A DNA stretch of 64,000 bases from Bdellovibrio sp. (GTDB lineage: Bacteria > Bdellovibrionota > Bdellovibrionia > Bdellovibrionales > Bdellovibrionaceae): assembly GCA_014376435.1 (NCBI GenBank), contig JACMRL010000035.1:1-64000 (forward strand), in the 5' to 3' direction. Under the pieces are notes generated by a model. It saw nothing but the letters and a program-made list of their open reading frames with translations, was not told where the DNA came from and did no database searches. Each line of letters begins with the position of its first letter. Position 1 is the first letter of the stretch. Positions 13,142 through 52,030 of this stretch are shown one piece after another. Both the position numbers and the translations under genes were made by a program.

Positions 13142-13387
13142 AACACAAACTCGACATTGTCCTAGTCGAACAACGACAAAAATCTAACAGGACCAGTCAG
13201 CTTTATAACCTATTTTTTCCTAGACCACGGCTAGTTTGCGCTGTGGAAGTTCATTTTTTTGACGATGGTGCCATTTCCACACAGGATCTCGACGTAGGTT
13301 TAGTTGGCATTTGTGTTGCTCTCTATTTTGATGGAATCAAGTCTAGAAATTTTTAGAGCCTAGCAGCAATGAATCAAGGAGGATGAA

Positions 13388-13921
13388 TTGGCTGAAGAAA
13401 AAGCATCAACAGAATCAGCACCCGCAGCCACCGCACCAGCATCTGGATCGAAGCCTTATTTACTAATCGCCCTTGTCGTTATCAACATGGCTGTTGTGGC
13501 ATTTGTTGGTTTCATGGTTTGGAAATCTCGAAAGTCAGAAGCCGCTAAACCTGGCATTGAGCAAGTGATTGATGGCGAACAAAAAACGCAACAAGAAGAA
13601 CACACAAAAACTGATGAAGTCGGAAAAGTTATTCCCTTAGAAACATTCATCGTGAATTTAGCGGGTTCAAAAGGCCGCAAAGTTCTTAAAGTGAATATGG
13701 AACTTGAAGTTAAAGGCCAAGAAATTATTCAAGAGATCGATAATCGTAAAGCGCAAATCCGAGATTTTATTATTATTATTCTTTCTAGCAAAAGCTACGA
13801 AGAGGTCTCTACGAAAGAAGGTAAAGATGCTTTACGTAACGAAATTAAAGACAATGTGAATTCTTTCTTAAGTAAGGGAAAGATCATGAACGTTTACTTT
13901 ACCGAATTAATCTACAACTAA
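13388..13921 (+). CDS. fliL: Flagellar basal-body-associated protein FliL
   Basis: 177 residues, single-pass membrane protein (helix about 23-45 after an Ala/Ser-rich cytoplasmic tail) with a periplasmic FliL domain that supports stator function. The start is TTG: AAGGAGG at 13376-13382 lies five bases upstream, and no in-frame ATG fits. First gene of a twelve-gene operon; fliM begins 15 bp downstream. The 246 bp before it probably hold the operon promoter, which I could not pin down. Confidence 0.9.
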   Translation: MAEEKASTESAPAATAPASGSKPYLLIALVVINMAVVAFVGFMVWKSRKSEAAKPGIEQVIDGEQKTQQEEHTKTDEVGKVIPLETFIVNLAGSKGRKVLKVNMELEVKGQEIIQEIDNRKAQIRDFIIIILSSKSYEEVSTKEGKDALRNEIKDNVNSFLSKGKIMNVYFTELIYN

Positions 13922-27811: not shown

Positions 27812-28927
27812 CTAAAAAGATTCACCCTGATCAATCTGATTCAGGGTGAATCCAGTTTCTTCTAGCGAAGAAATTTCATAAATTCCCTGAAGCTTTCTAA
27901 AGCCATCTTTTTTCTCTAGAACAATAATATTTTGAATTGTCATCGCAATTAATTTACGAATCGATTGTAAACTCCACTGCGGGGCACCCATTTGAATTAG
28001 CATCTCTAGTCGTAGTAAGGCTTCCAAAGCGGTGCGCGCATGTAGCGAACCAAAACTACCGTCATGTCCTGTAGCCATCGCCATCATTAATGATTTTGCC
28101 TCGGGCCCGCGTATCTCACCGATAACTAAGCGGTCAGGGCGTAAACGTAACGCTCGCTTTAATAAATCATCCATCCCGACATCACCGACCGAGCGACTAG
28201 GATCTTGTCGTGTTAGTAAAGATACACTGGCTGAATCGGGTAGCTGCAACTCTTGAGTATCTTCAATAATAACGGCGCGTTCTTCCTTGTTTAACATTTG
28301 CAGTAAAGACTGTAAAAAACTAGTTTTGCCAGATCCCGTGCCACCGACGACTAAAAAATTTTTCTTCTGCTGAAAAATGTCTTTAATCTGGTTGATCTGA
28401 CTTTCGTTGCACCATTTTTTTTCTAAAAAAGATTCTAATGTCCATTTGCTTTTAGGCTGCACACGGATTGAAAGCAAACTGCTACCTCGTGAAAGCTCGC
28501 CAAAGATAATTGTAATCCGCAAGCGGCCAGACTGTGATTCTACAAAAGGCTTTTCGCGGTTTAAGTAGCTTCCGCACTTTTGAGAAAGTCGGTCTAAAAC
28601 TGCAACGTAAGAATTTTCTGAATAGAAGTGATCCGTGTAACGTGATAATTTCCCATTTTTTTCATAGAATATTTCTTGATAATTATTAACCAAAATCTCG
28701 GTGATATCCGCATCGCTTAATAGATCATCTAATGGTCCTAAACCTGATATTTCATTAATAATCCGGTTTTTTACCAAAAAAGGTTCGCTGGCAACTTCTA
28801 CATCGATTAAATTTTGGAAACGTTCCGTCAGTGACATATCTGATTCGTTAGAATCCCAATCGACGTCGATACGACTCTTTTGTTTTGAAAAAATAGATTC
28901 TATTTTTTTGTAAACATCGTTATTCAT
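27812..28927 (-). CDS. cpaF: Flp/Tad pilus assembly ATPase CpaF/TadA
   Basis: 371 residues, type II/IV secretion ATPase. Walker A GGTGSGKT at 195-202, an aspartate-box-like IIEDTQELQ, Walker B RLVIGEIRG, and a His box GSFGSLHA are all visible. CpaF/TadA powers polymerisation of Flp pili at the inner membrane. It overlaps the cpaC gene by 8 bp. The usual tadB/tadC platform genes do not follow; the next gene is convergent aspS. The last codons lie inside an intrinsic terminator. Confidence 0.93.
   Translation of the reverse strand: MNNDVYKKIESIFSKQKSRIDVDWDSNESDMSLTERFQNLIDVEVASEPFLVKNRIINEISGLGPLDDLLSDADITEILVNNYQEIFYEKNGKLSRYTDHFYSENSYVAVLDRLSQKCGSYLNREKPFVESQSGRLRITIIFGELSRGSSLLSIRVQPKSKWTLESFLEKKWCNESQINQIKDIFQQKKNFLVVGGTGSGKTSFLQSLLQMLNKEERAVIIEDTQELQLPDSASVSLLTRQDPSRSVGDVGMDDLLKRALRLRPDRLVIGEIRGPEAKSLMMAMATGHDGSFGSLHARTALEALLRLEMLIQMGAPQWSLQSIRKLIAMTIQNIIVLEKKDGFRKLQGIYEISSLEETGFTLNQIDQGESF
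27814..27852 (-). terminator. Intrinsic terminator embedded in the 3' end of cpaF
   Basis: 27819-27830 and 27841-27852 form a perfect 12-bp stem (GATTCACCCTGA and its complement) with a 10-nt loop. On the minus strand it is followed by TTTTT, which encodes the final Ser-Phe and leads into the TAG stop (27812-27814). The whole terminator is therefore coding sequence. On the plus strand it could also stall read-through from aspS, but there it lacks a T tract. Confidence 0.85.
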
Positions 28928-30185
28928 TAGTGACCACCGTTTCTTGCTTCATTAATTCCGGAGTTACAAAAATAACCAGTTCCGTGCGGCTTTCGCGGTA
29001 ATCTTTGCTAGAGAATAAAGTTCCTAAAATAGGAATTTGGCTCAAGAATGGTAAGCCTTCACTGCTTTCGCCAGTTTCGTTTTTTAATAAGCCCGATAAA
29101 GCAATCGTTTGGCTTTTGATCAAATCAAAATGGCTAACCACGCGATGGGTATGAATGCCCGGGATGCCGTCGACCGTTGTGCTTTTATCTAAGCTAGAAA
29201 CTTCAGACTCAATTTGAATACTCATTTGTCCGATGGAATCAATCACAGGTTTAATTTTCATCCCAATCCCGTATTTTTTCCAAACGACATCATTTACTTT
29301 GAAATTAAGGATACGAATCGGAAATTCACCACCAGCAAAAAATTCTGCTTCTTTGCCGCTACGACAGATTAAAGTGGGTGAAGCTAAAACTTTAATGTTA
29401 CCTTGATTTTCACTGGCGACCGCCGCCATATCAATTGGTAAAACTTGGGCCGCGCCATCGATGATTTGTGCCGAGTAAGTTCCGGGATACTTAATACCAA
29501 GAGAGCGGCCAAATTCTTTTTTAATCTCTGTAATCTGTACGGCCACGCGAATATTATCAGCGATTTCAATTTTTTGTTTATTCTCGATGGCCAAAATCCC
29601 CATTTGCTGCAAAGTATTTTTATAATCTGTGGCGTAGTCTTTAGCACTAAATTGAATTTTCCAAGGTTCGCCAAACATGATTTTCAAAGGGGTTAAGCCT
29701 TTTTCGCGCAAATACTTTTCAATATGAACTGAAACCTTATGCTTTAACTTTTCGTCAAGCTGAACTGCCCAAAATAAAGATGATCCGTTTGTTCTGATCA
29801 AATCAATTACTTTTTCATAGTCGGCAAAGCGATAAAGTTTTCCTTTTAAACAAACAACTTCTTCACAGAAGTCGACTTGTAGACCCAAAAATTTTTTTGC
29901 AAGCTTGGTCCAATCATTAAAAGTTTTAAGTGAACCAATCGGTGTGCTGACCACGGTATAAGATTCATTATCTAACCGGATCTGTGTGCTGCCAATGCCC
30001 AGAGTTTTTAAATAAATCTGCGAACCACGGGTCTGCACGCCAATTAATTTAGGATTTTCAACCCATACTTTAGAAGCACGCTGCTTAACTAAGTGATCTT
30101 GACCCAGCTCAATCGTAATAATTTCTTTAGAGAAAACCAAGGTTTGGAAAACGAATAAAATAGTGAAGACGGCTGTATTTTTCAT
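28920..30185 (-). CDS. cpaC: Flp/Tad pilus secretin CpaC/RcpA
   Basis: 421 residues with a signal peptide (ending LVFSKE). The N-terminal pilus-formation domain spans about 20-95 (VWVENPKLIGVQT...). The C-terminal secretin domain runs from about residue 205 (VQITEIKKEFGRSLG) to the end, with the signature TELVIFVTPELM. It would form the outer-membrane channel for the Flp pilus. It sits between the kinase gene (62 bp upstream) and cpaF (8-bp overlap). Confidence 0.92.
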   Translation of the reverse strand: MKNTAVFTILFVFQTLVFSKEIITIELGQDHLVKQRASKVWVENPKLIGVQTRGSQIYLKTLGIGSTQIRLDNESYTVVSTPIGSLKTFNDWTKLAKKFLGLQVDFCEEVVCLKGKLYRFADYEKVIDLIRTNGSSLFWAVQLDEKLKHKVSVHIEKYLREKGLTPLKIMFGEPWKIQFSAKDYATDYKNTLQQMGILAIENKQKIEIADNIRVAVQITEIKKEFGRSLGIKYPGTYSAQIIDGAAQVLPIDMAAVASENQGNIKVLASPTLICRSGKEAEFFAGGEFPIRILNFKVNDVVWKKYGIGMKIKPVIDSIGQMSIQIESEVSSLDKSTTVDGIPGIHTHRVVSHFDLIKSQTIALSGLLKNETGESSEGLPFLSQIPILGTLFSSKDYRESRTELVIFVTPELMKQETVVTNE

Positions 30186-37148: not shown

Positions 37149-37470
37149 CAAGTTCAAGCGCTAGCTCGCTTTCTTTTTGAAAAATTTTTCCTAAGTCGGT
37201 GTTTGCGTAAAGTTGAATGTAAGAATAATCATTGGTAGTTCTAAAAACTAAATTCACATTTTTTAGATTAAAATCGTTCAAGCTAGCTTGAAGCTTATGA
37301 CGGCACGAAGGCCTTCGCTGAAGTTCGCAAAGGTGAGCCGACTCGATCAGTTCGCCAATTACAATATTCATTTGAATCGCCAGGCCAATGCGAACGGTGA
37401 AAAGTATCGTCGTCATTAAAAATAGGCCAAAAATACTTAGCTCGACCGCCGCCTGGCCTTTTTGGTTCAT
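37138..37470 (-). CDS. TadE-like pseudopilin
   Basis: 110 residues. The leader MNQKGQAAVELSIFGLFLMT has the TadE pattern, with Gly-Gln at the likely prepilin-peptidase site and Glu five residues into the mature protein. Two cysteines (CELQRRPSC) may form a disulfide. The start overlaps the pilin stop (TAATG), so it is translated with the pilin. Confidence 0.85.
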   Translation of the reverse strand: MNQKGQAAVELSIFGLFLMTTILFTVRIGLAIQMNIVIGELIESAHLCELQRRPSCRHKLQASLNDFNLKNVNLVFRTTNDYSYIQLYANTDLGKIFQKESELALELDVP

Positions 37471-37733
37471 TATCTGGCGCCGTCCATAAAATTTGAAAGA
37501 TCTTTGCGATTGGTATTGCTGACATTATCAAGATCTAGCTTCTCAGTTTTTTTAGCTCCCATGGCCCGGTTGATGTTTTCGTATTGCTTCGTTACGTTTT
37601 GACCAACGACTTTAACGACGCCGATGGTACCCACGGCAATCAAGGCGACCAGAATCATATATTCGATCATGCCTTGGCCCTTGTTATTAAGCTTGCGGGG
37701 TAATTGAACTTTGGTTGTTTTGATTTTAGACAT
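37470..37733 (-). CDS. flp: Flp/Fap-type pilin
   Basis: 87 residues: a basic leader, the processing site KGQGMIEYMIL (cleavage expected after a Gly, mature Glu near +5, Tyr after it), one hydrophobic helix (LVALIAVGTIGVVKVVG) and a polar tail. This is the structural subunit of the Flp pilus made by the Tad machinery. The ribosome site GGAGG is the 3' arm of a hairpin immediately upstream. First gene of the pilin block. Confidence 0.93.
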   Translation of the reverse strand: MSKIKTTKVQLPRKLNNKGQGMIEYMILVALIAVGTIGVVKVVGQNVTKQYENINRAMGAKKTEKLDLDNVSNTNRKDLSNFMDGAR

Positions 37734-37758
37734 AAAAAAAGCCTCCTGAGTGGAGGCT
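37734..37758 (-). terminator. Terminator/attenuator hairpin overlapping the flp ribosome site
   Basis: The stem AGCCTCC-loop-GGAGGCT is followed by TTTTTTT and then the pilin ATG. It fits an intrinsic terminator for the upstream Lys/Ala-rich gene (stop at 37818). GGAGG is also the only good ribosome site for flp, so full termination or full folding would both silence the pilin. Confidence 0.75.
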
Positions 37759-37817
37759 ATGCAAGCTAGCTGCGCTGATTGGGTTAGCTAGCTGCGGGAT
37801 TAAATCCGCAGTTCGAA
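37734..37817 (-). promoter_or_regulatory. Structured RNA leader of the flp pilin gene
   Basis: Read on the minus strand, three elements precede the pilin ATG. First, CTGCGG/CCGCAG (37792-37811) makes a hairpin. Second, two copies of AGCTAGCT lie within the repeat AGCTAGCTGCG (37764-37774 and 37786-37796) and can pair with each other. Third, AGCCTCC/GGAGGCT (about 37740-37758) forms a stem followed by seven Ts that run into ATG. The last hairpin is both terminator-like and covers the GGAGG ribosome site. Confidence 0.75.
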
Positions 37818-38255
37818 TTACTTCTTTTTACCGGCTACCTTTTTTTTAGCAGGCGGGGCCGCTTTTATAGGAGCGGTCTTTTTTGTCGGGGCCGCTTTAG
37901 CTATCGGTTTTACGGCAGCTGGTTTAGGGGGTATCACAGCTTTTTTAATTTGAACGGTGATATCTTTTTTTACTGGCGCAGCTACTTTAGCGGCTTCAAC
38001 TTTTTTTGCGGCCGCTTCTAATTTCTTAGCGGGCTGAGCATCTTGTTTTTCTTTTAACTTCTTAGCTTTGCGAACGCCTACGATGCGCTCCATGATTTCG
38101 TAAGCTTCTTTTTGTAAGTCATTTTCAAAAATGAAGCGGTAAAAGCCTTCAATTTCAGGACTTTGGCGGAATTTTTTTACGGAAGTCGGCATGCTTTCGG
38201 ATTGAACAAAATCAATCGAGTTTCCGTCTTTTGAAAGTTTCACTTTATCTGCCAC
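37818..38255 (-). CDS. Small protein with a histone-H1-like Lys/Ala/Pro-rich tail
   Basis: 145 residues. The start is GTG at 38255, chosen because GGGAGGG lies five bases upstream. Residues 1-75 form a short folded region (FRQSPEIEGFYRFIFENDLQ). The rest is a basic tail of Lys, Ala and Pro with KKT/AKK repeats, like eukaryotic histone H1 tails and bacterial nucleoid proteins. DNA or RNA binding is plausible but inferred from composition only. It lies just upstream of flp on the same strand. Confidence 0.7.
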   Translation of the reverse strand: MADKVKLSKDGNSIDFVQSESMPTSVKKFRQSPEIEGFYRFIFENDLQKEAYEIMERIVGVRKAKKLKEKQDAQPAKKLEAAAKKVEAAKVAAPVKKDITVQIKKAVIPPKPAAVKPIAKAAPTKKTAPIKAAPPAKKKVAGKKK

Positions 38256-38387
38256 AAGAACCCTCCCTTTGAGAATGAGAATAAAATGCAATCTAATCTA
38301 ATGACGTAGACGGGTCAAGCATCAAGCTAGTATATAAGTCGTTGATTTTCTTTAAGTTTCAGATCATTTTAAAGTCGGGTGGTGCGT

Positions 38388-50945: not shown

Positions 50946-51878
50946 TTATAAATTGATGTTAGCTGCGAAACCAACAGTCGTTTGGTCAGCAGTTAAGCGA
51001 GACCATTTCCATTGCATGTTCGGGTACAAGTAGATATCACGTGTAGCCGCGAAACCAACACCCATAGACTGAGTTTGGCCAGCTAAAGTACCGCGTTCTT
51101 TGTCAGCATTAGATACTGACCAAGTTAACCAACGAGAAACAGTTCTGAAAGAAACTGCATCGCTGATTGCATATTCAAATACTGGATTTAAACCGAATTG
51201 GTAAACAGTGTTGTCACCAGCTTGCTCAGAATAAATTTCTTGAGAGAAAAAGCTGTAAAGTCCGACTTCAGCTTTAGATGTTCCTAAAGAAACCATCATC
51301 GTGTGAGATACTGAAGCATTATAATTTAAGTGAGATTCGTTAACGTCAGCGTCAGCAGTATATTTACTGATCGTAGCATCAAGAACGTTTTGCACATCGC
51401 CAGCTTTGAAAACGCGACCATAGCTTAAGTATGGAGTAGAAGCGTTTGATTTAGCAGATACTTTTTCGCCAGTTACTTTATTAGCTGTATGTTCAGGAGT
51501 ATATTCTACGCCGAAACCTACGTTTAAATTATCATGATCAGTTAAACGATACTTAACAGACAACTGACCCGTTAATTTAGTTGGATCAATAGACACTTGA
51601 CCATCATTTAATTGAGGGCGTTCAGTACTTGTAGGATCTTTAATTGATCCACCAGCGTAAGAGAAAGAAGAACCGAAAGACCATAACTTTTTCGAACCAG
51701 TTTCAGCACGTAATTTTGCATTCGTGATTTCTTCGTCTATGTTCTTACGATTTTCAGCGTTGTTACCAACTTCAGTCATTTTAACTGTAGAAGTTGTTTC
51801 TGTTGTCGTTGTTGTTTCAGCATAAGCTGCTGAACCTAACAATAAAGCAGCTACTGCTACTAGTGTTTTTGAATTCAT
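50946..51878 (-). CDS. Outer-membrane beta-barrel-like protein
   Basis: 310 residues with a clean signal peptide (ending SAAYAE). A short Thr/Glu-rich segment is followed by about 12-14 predicted amphipathic strands rich in Ser/Thr/Tyr (SVKYRLTDHDNLNVGFGVEY, SYGRVFKAGD) and a C-terminal AANINL. This resembles a porin-like or OmpA-less barrel; no named family. GGGGAAAAT precedes the ATG, and the strong terminator follows. Confidence 0.7.
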   Translation of the reverse strand: MNSKTLVAVAALLLGSAAYAETTTTTETTSTVKMTEVGNNAENRKNIDEEITNAKLRAETGSKKLWSFGSSFSYAGGSIKDPTSTERPQLNDGQVSIDPTKLTGQLSVKYRLTDHDNLNVGFGVEYTPEHTANKVTGEKVSAKSNASTPYLSYGRVFKAGDVQNVLDATISKYTADADVNESHLNYNASVSHTMMVSLGTSKAEVGLYSFFSQEIYSEQAGDNTVYQFGLNPVFEYAISDAVSFRTVSRWLTWSVSNADKERGTLAGQTQSMGVGFAATRDIYLYPNMQWKWSRLTADQTTVGFAANINL

Positions 51879-51919: not shown

Positions 51920-52030
51920 TTACCTTTTGGCGCCAATACCGGGCGCGTCTACAAACTTTGCAACGAAGGTGCCACAAATCGTCAGGCCGATCAAACAAAT
52001 GCGCACGAATGATTGTTTTTTTAAACTCAT
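51920..52030 (-). CDS. Possible 36-residue membrane or leader peptide
   Basis: ATG 52030 to TAA 51920, product MSLKKQSFVRICLIGLTICG then a short basic tail ending GIGAKR. Positive N-terminus plus hydrophobic core suggests a small membrane or secreted peptide. AAGGAC lies 12 bases before the ATG (long spacing). It precedes the barrel gene by 41 bp on the same strand. Confidence 0.35.
   Translation of the reverse strand: MSLKKQSFVRICLIGLTICGTFVAKFVDAPGIGAKR

Follow-up and report, generated by a model that had tools for sequence, protein, structure and literature searches.

The Shine-Dalgarno sequence (SD) of the pilin gene flp is buried in a hairpin in the 64,000 nt stretch of Bdellovibrio sp. 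DNA analysed here (the window), and this hairpin is real and conserved. We consider it probable that it acts as a start-site-dependent translational insulator of flp. RNA reading through from the small Lys/Ala-rich gene upstream would carry both arms of the hairpin, locking the flp SD. RNA from flp's own sigma54-type promoter would start in the loop, without the 5' arm, and leave the SD free, and pilin would be produced only when this dedicated, activator-dependent promoter fires. In the window copy, the stem and the U-run behind it might also terminate leaking RNA. If the proposal is correct, flp3, a predator pilin reported to be silent, gains a concrete and testable form of regulation.

The flp locus and its start-site hairpin

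The product of flp (Table 1) matches the Flp_Fap family (PF04964) with an E value of 1.3e-6; the score, 28.6 bits, falls slightly short of the curated cut-off (32.2). Homologues are present in 56 of 59 relatives. The gene for the FliA sigma factor lies 13 kb from flp in the window, and the two genes are within about 28 kb of each other in 10 of 10 genomes checked. In the available text of Avidan et al. 2017 (PMC5430801), flp3 is bd3297 and fliA is bd3318, with flp1/flp2 (bd0119/bd0118) and flp4 (bd2719-bd2720 region) located elsewhere. Because of these bd numbers and the closeness of flp to fliA, the window gene is most likely, by synteny, the orthologue of flp3 (bd3297). The same text reports that flp3 is silent in all phases tested, that its promoter is unresponsive to FliA, and that its deletion has no effect on predation; for what is the same gene by synteny, it mentions neither a hairpin nor a sigma54 promoter. 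FliA control of flp was rejected here, given that unresponsive flp3 promoter and the absence from the window of any match to the FliA (sigma28) site TTAAG-N16-CCGATA at spacings of 15–17.

The protein encoded by the co-directional upstream gene has no Pfam match. A promoter-like site precedes this gene at 38318–38290, although the promoter scan as a whole performed at chance level. An upstream gene with a Lys-rich tail is found in 79 of 121 loci of f1–f10, and is thus a conserved neighbour of flp3. Genes for a TadA-type ATPase and a secretin lie on the same strand at 27812–30185 (minus), ~7–10 kb from flp; parted from flp by plus-strand genes, they form a split tad-like cluster around flp3.

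Table 1. Features at the flp locus, in window coordinates.
Feature	Positions	Strand	Basis or remark
flp pilin gene (flp3 type), GQGMIEY motif	37470..37733	-	Flp_Fap PF04964, homologues
Six T behind the stem; may act as intrinsic terminator on read-through RNA, local feature	37734..37739	-	Sequence, terminator scan
3' arm GGAGGCT, including Shine-Dalgarno GGAGG (37746–37742)	37740..37746	-	Sequence, fold, opening cost 11.4 kcal/mol
Loop ACTCA, holds predicted transcription start	37747..37751	-	Sequence, fold; +1 predicted from -12 box
Predicted +1 of flp RNA	37749..37749	-	Inferred; 12 nt after the -12 C (37761)
5' arm and anti-SD, AGCCTCC; about -9 to -3 of the predicted promoter, in read-through RNA only	37752..37758	-	Sequence, fold, swap test
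TTGCA, sigma54-type -12 box	37760..37764	-	TTGC[AT] enrichment over flp loci
Degenerate -24 position, GCGCAG (consensus TGGCAC)	37770..37775	-	Weak; p=0.32 in the window's genus
CGGA half-site, remnant of upstream TCCG...CGGA inverted repeat	37805..37808	-	Only the half-site in the window
Co-directional upstream gene, small Lys/Ala-rich protein	37818..38255	-	Likely source of read-through RNA

Positions 37758–37740 of the minus strand read AGCCTCC-ACTCA-GGAGGCT, and a T-run leads from there into the ATG at 37733. An earlier reading of this DNA, made from the sequence only, had placed the good SD of flp, GGAGG, in the 3' arm of an AGCCTCC/GGAGGCT stem. That stem is present: the arms (37758–37752 and 37746–37740) form seven pairs in the computed fold and bury the SD, at an opening cost of 11.4 kcal/mol. 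Seven T had been counted after the stem. The run does extend into the ATG, although its first T is the last base of the stem and only six follow. Shuffled sequences have a mean opening cost of 5.5 kcal/mol and none of 40 reaches 11.4; the 15 other window genes with an SD of at least five bases have a median of 2.4 and a maximum of 5.7 kcal/mol.

The 84 nt leader folds at -29.0 kcal/mol compared to -18.6 (sd 2.8) for its dinucleotide shuffles (z -3.7), none of 200 being as stable. The other elements that the sequence-only reading had described, a CTGCGG (37811–37806)/CCGCAG (37797–37792) hairpin and two AGCTAGCT blocks (37793–37786 and 37771–37764), are all present, and the two blocks pair with each other in the minimum-energy fold. 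That reading recognised no known riboswitch class and neither did Rfam, a search of which returned only two weak matches (24.1 bits against a cut-off of 55, and 20.9 against 37) and no riboswitch or RNA thermometer family at its cut-off. The flp hairpin in the window has the GC-rich stem and following U-run of an intrinsic terminator, and it is one of two found in a simple terminator scan of the region, a yield at chance level (shuffle mean 1.7).

Conservation of the stem

A set of 143 flp loci of Bdellovibrionota was hand-picked from homologue searches, best-scoring first. At the weak end of this set G028 (E 1.1e-7) is included, whereas the slightly better G275, G171, G271 and G320, as well as weaker ones, are not. 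Locus L071, in which no pilin motif was found, was dropped before all counts, leaving 142 usable loci. The script that assigned start codons gives preference to a good SD and may thereby favour stems containing one, although the SD is left unchanged in the shuffle and swap controls. In the swap test, the cost of opening the SD with its native 5' region is compared to the cost with 5' regions taken from other loci.

Across the 142 loci, the SD is more costly to open with its native 5' region than with swapped ones (7.32 vs 5.57 kcal/mol, p=5.5e-7), and this also holds when each genus contributes a single locus (n=60; 7.36 vs 5.63 kcal/mol, p at most 0.0024 in 10 draws). The effect is seen in the groups of f1–f10 (p between 0.00014 and 0.023), whereas families f11 and beyond show no stem effect in this test (p=0.98). 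Median SD opening costs are 10.7 kcal/mol in the window's genus, 9.7 in genus g6 (which includes 3.8-Mb Bdellovibrio-like genomes), and 8.2 and 8.3 in the other groups of f1–f10, with shuffle means of 4.7–5.9; in families f11 and beyond the cost is 4.3 kcal/mol compared to 3.1 in shuffles. For the 61 loci with a strict 4-nt core, pairing continues outward for 2.20 pairs on average, and the largest value in 2000 permutations is 1.64. All six standard pair types are used at the second outward pair, with 24 of the 61 loci unpaired there. The result is closer with one locus per genus (n=33), at 1.88 observed and 1.91 for the largest permuted value. At the level of sequence comparison, the swap and strict-core results bear the signature of an RNA stem under selection in Bdellovibrionales flp loci.

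The remainder of the leader behaves differently. While the start-site stem is kept with compensating changes, the CTGCGG/CCGCAG hairpin and the AGCTAGCT blocks occur in none of 141 relatives. A conserved three-hairpin switch was rejected for this reason, and a conformational switch operating through these upstream elements is not supported. A run of at least five T before the start codon is present in 8 of 141 relatives, and thus in only 9 of 142 loci counting the window. We accordingly rejected termination as a conserved function, although silencing by termination, as the sequence-only reading had it, may survive in the window copy, where the stem and U-run could end read-through transcripts.

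A promoter-like box and the predicted transcript start

The computed stem overlaps what appears to be a promoter. Of the 142 loci, 90 have TTGC[AT] at a distance of 16–40 nt ahead of the start codon and 52 lack it in this range; among windows of equal size lying further upstream, 29 of 715 contain it. Where more than one TTGCW was present (3 loci), the box nearest the start was used. The distance from the C of the box to the start codon clusters at 24–28 nt. At sigma54 promoters, transcription starts 12 nt after the -12 C. The use of sigma54 and the exact +1 of flp are both inferred.

The -24 element is less uniform. G is present at -24 in 44 of the 90 box loci (4 of 11 in the window's genus). 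Compared to control TTGCW sites, the element is overrepresented in the whole set (p=9.6e-9) and in four of the five groups. It is not above control in the window's genus (p=0.32), so that sigma54 here rests on the -12 box and on homology. The window copy has TTGC[AT] at -12, and its genome encodes rpoN (PF04552, 221 bits), but it lacks the GG (TGGCA) expected at -24, 10 bases upstream of the -12 GC; as this position reads GCGCAG and the genus gives p=0.32, we do not file the window copy as a proven sigma54 promoter. Families f13–f16 have canonical forms at flp, such as TGGCAC-N5-TTGC or TGGCAT-N5-TCGC. The presence of rpoN does not discriminate between genomes with and without the box, since it was found in 312 of 324 genomes. 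The 12 in which it was not found include G008, G190 and G049, which have flp with TTGCW; these assemblies are 86–94% complete.

Several other features of these upstream regions were observed. T/A residues are enriched at about -43 to -40 of the predicted +1 (T at -43 in 67% of the 90 loci), which may reflect terminator tails or an upstream promoter element. About 80–120 nt before the flp start a TCCG...CGGA inverted repeat is strongly enriched: CCGGAC/GTCCGG is present in 47 of 142 loci, where shuffles predict 4.2. A sigma54 activator could bind at this repeat. Among g6 loci it often reads GTCCGGA-CC-TCCGGAC followed by a T-run, and is terminator-like. The strict palindrome TGTCCGA-N-TCGGACA was found genome-wide in 13 of 59 genomes, about as frequently as its reversed control. 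The sigma54-type pattern has three matches in the window with 1.2 expected. Canonical sites are seen at 13305–13320 (plus strand; TGGCATTTGTGTTGCT), upstream of an ORF at 13388 in a flagellar gene cluster, and at 51959–51974 (minus strand; TGGCACCTTCGTTGCA), upstream of an ORF at 51878.

In the window, opening the SD is computed to cost 11.4 kcal/mol when the RNA is long and 2.2 when it begins at the predicted +1, and the medians for the window's genus are 10.7 and 1.4. The cost is at most 3.2 kcal/mol wherever between -5 and +2 of 37749 the RNA begins, compared to 11.5 with the full 5' arm. The SD pairs mostly upstream of the predicted +1 in 73 of the 90 box loci and downstream in five, and 7 of 9 TTGCW loci in families f11 and beyond also pair mostly upstream. 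The 79 loci that have a Lys-rich co-directional gene upstream show a stronger stem (median 8.98) than the other 42 (p=0.011), and loci with any detected co-directional upstream frame exceed those with none (p=0.043), although in a cruder test upstream-gene orientation is not significantly associated with the stem (p=0.19; 0.28 within f1–f10). The read-through RNA and the effect on protein are parts of the insulator model that we infer. An added protein factor may also take part, CsrA being encoded in the genome.

Alternative readings, known systems and wider occurrence

The sequence-only reading had proposed an RNA switch. In the form considered here, a longer leader refolds via the CTGCGG hairpin and the AGCTAGCT blocks, and the SD is freed or covered in response to a ligand, a protein or temperature. 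The unusual stability of the leader, its sequestered SD and the csrA gene would all suit such a device, but we think it improbable: its upstream elements are missing from every relative, no Rfam match exceeds the cut-off, the interval from the upstream gene to the stem yielded no sigma70-like promoter, and the start predicted from the conserved TTGCW box falls inside the stem. Transcripts of flp starting after 37758 had been named as evidence against the switch, and such transcripts, with +1 at 37749, are what the promoter evidence predicts. The switch is thus not supported as the best reading of the hairpin, and the choice between on and off would lie in the promoter used and not in the refolding of one leader. 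It is more improbable still that the hairpin is a mere terminator of the Lys/Ala-rich gene, lying over the SD by chance. Its seven-pair stem and T-run would serve an intrinsic terminator well, yet the T-run is confined to those 9 of 142 loci, whereas stems that bury the SD are common and vary in step with the SD side, and many relatives appear by eye to have a separate terminator further upstream.

A variant that keeps the insulator, but has the promoter in the stem used by another sigma factor or formed by a divergent -12-only element, is unlikely, albeit less so than the two readings above. It would account for the lack of -24 enrichment in the window's genus, in an order whose other genes have many canonical TGGC-N7-TTGCW promoters. 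Sigma54 is favoured by TTGC[AT] at the homologous place, by G enrichment at -24 in other groups and by the canonical sites at flp of the deep families, and FliA in particular is disfavoured by the missing consensus site in the window and by the FliA-unresponsive flp3 promoter described in the available text of PMC5430801.

The start-site-dependent insulator that we prefer has precedents. Start-dependent SD hairpins are described for phage T4 genes e (lysozyme), soc, 49 and I-TevI in the available text of PMC3014915 and PMC2988022; long RNA initiated upstream hides the SD, whereas RNA from the near promoter lacks the 5' strand and is translated. A large hairpin against spoIIG read-through is likewise described for sigG of Bacillus subtilis (PMC5942855, available text), a chromosomal case in which it is proposed to block translation of read-through RNA and cannot form in transcripts that start at the promoter of sigG itself. 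Two characteristics of this type are found at flp: the SD is base-paired in long RNA, and the stem is kept via compensating changes (native compared to swapped arms). A third, an own promoter with its +1 within the stem-loop, is predicted from the conserved -12-like box. There are also differences, as far as the available texts of these sources go. The T4 cases depend on a phage late sigma factor and T4 late promoters, while flp is a bacterial pilin gene with a sigma54-type box, spread over many genera and with a predicted function; the sigG hairpin has at least 20 pairs and a sigmaF/sigmaG promoter, whereas flp has seven pairs in the window and a 5' arm within -11 to -1 of the predicted promoter. 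By analogy, then, the logic would be that of T4 and sigG, and the differing parts would be the sigma54-type box, the order-wide pilin gene and the 5' arm in the -11 to -1 DNA. The literature searched, with partial coverage, gave no earlier description of such a design for Bdellovibrio flp. Of 140 attack-phase promoters, Karunker et al. 2013 (PMC3627812, available text) report that 92 have FliA sites and that the others show no strong motif.

We suggest, more tentatively, that start-site hairpins may be a general device of the Bdellovibrionales that seals sigma54-type genes against read-through, with the -11 to -1 DNA doubling as anti-SD and flp3 as an extreme case. TGGC-N7-TTGCW...GGAG...ATG is matched in 115 of 126 genomes of the order, with control counts near zero. 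When each of 99 other sigma54-type promoters is ranked together with its own 40 shuffles, 17 take one of the top three of the 41 places, with ~7 expected. Their SDs are nonetheless far less buried than at flp (3.76 vs 7.15 kcal/mol, p=5e-11), and the anti-SD is therefore not part of the promoter consensus. TTGCW combined with CCTCC/GGAGG occurs in 33 of 59 relatives, at many places away from flp; 5 of 20 inspected loci were flp. TGGC-N7-TTGCW combined with CTCC/GGAG occurs in 72 of 324 genomes and is absent from the window's own, but this pattern is not relied on since its reversed control (8 matches) differs in CpG content. If the device is general, it would help to explain the silence of flp3 in HD100. 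A second candidate was seen at L162 (G024:C7:2844-2871), a lipoprotein-like gene with TGGCAC-N5-TTGCT and, behind it, an SD hairpin. Should the insulator proposed for flp be correct, the gene e trick of T4 would be an old and conserved design on bacterial chromosomes, joined to activator-dependent promoters. It would also carry a warning, that hairpins beside a start codon can pass for riboswitches or misplaced terminators.
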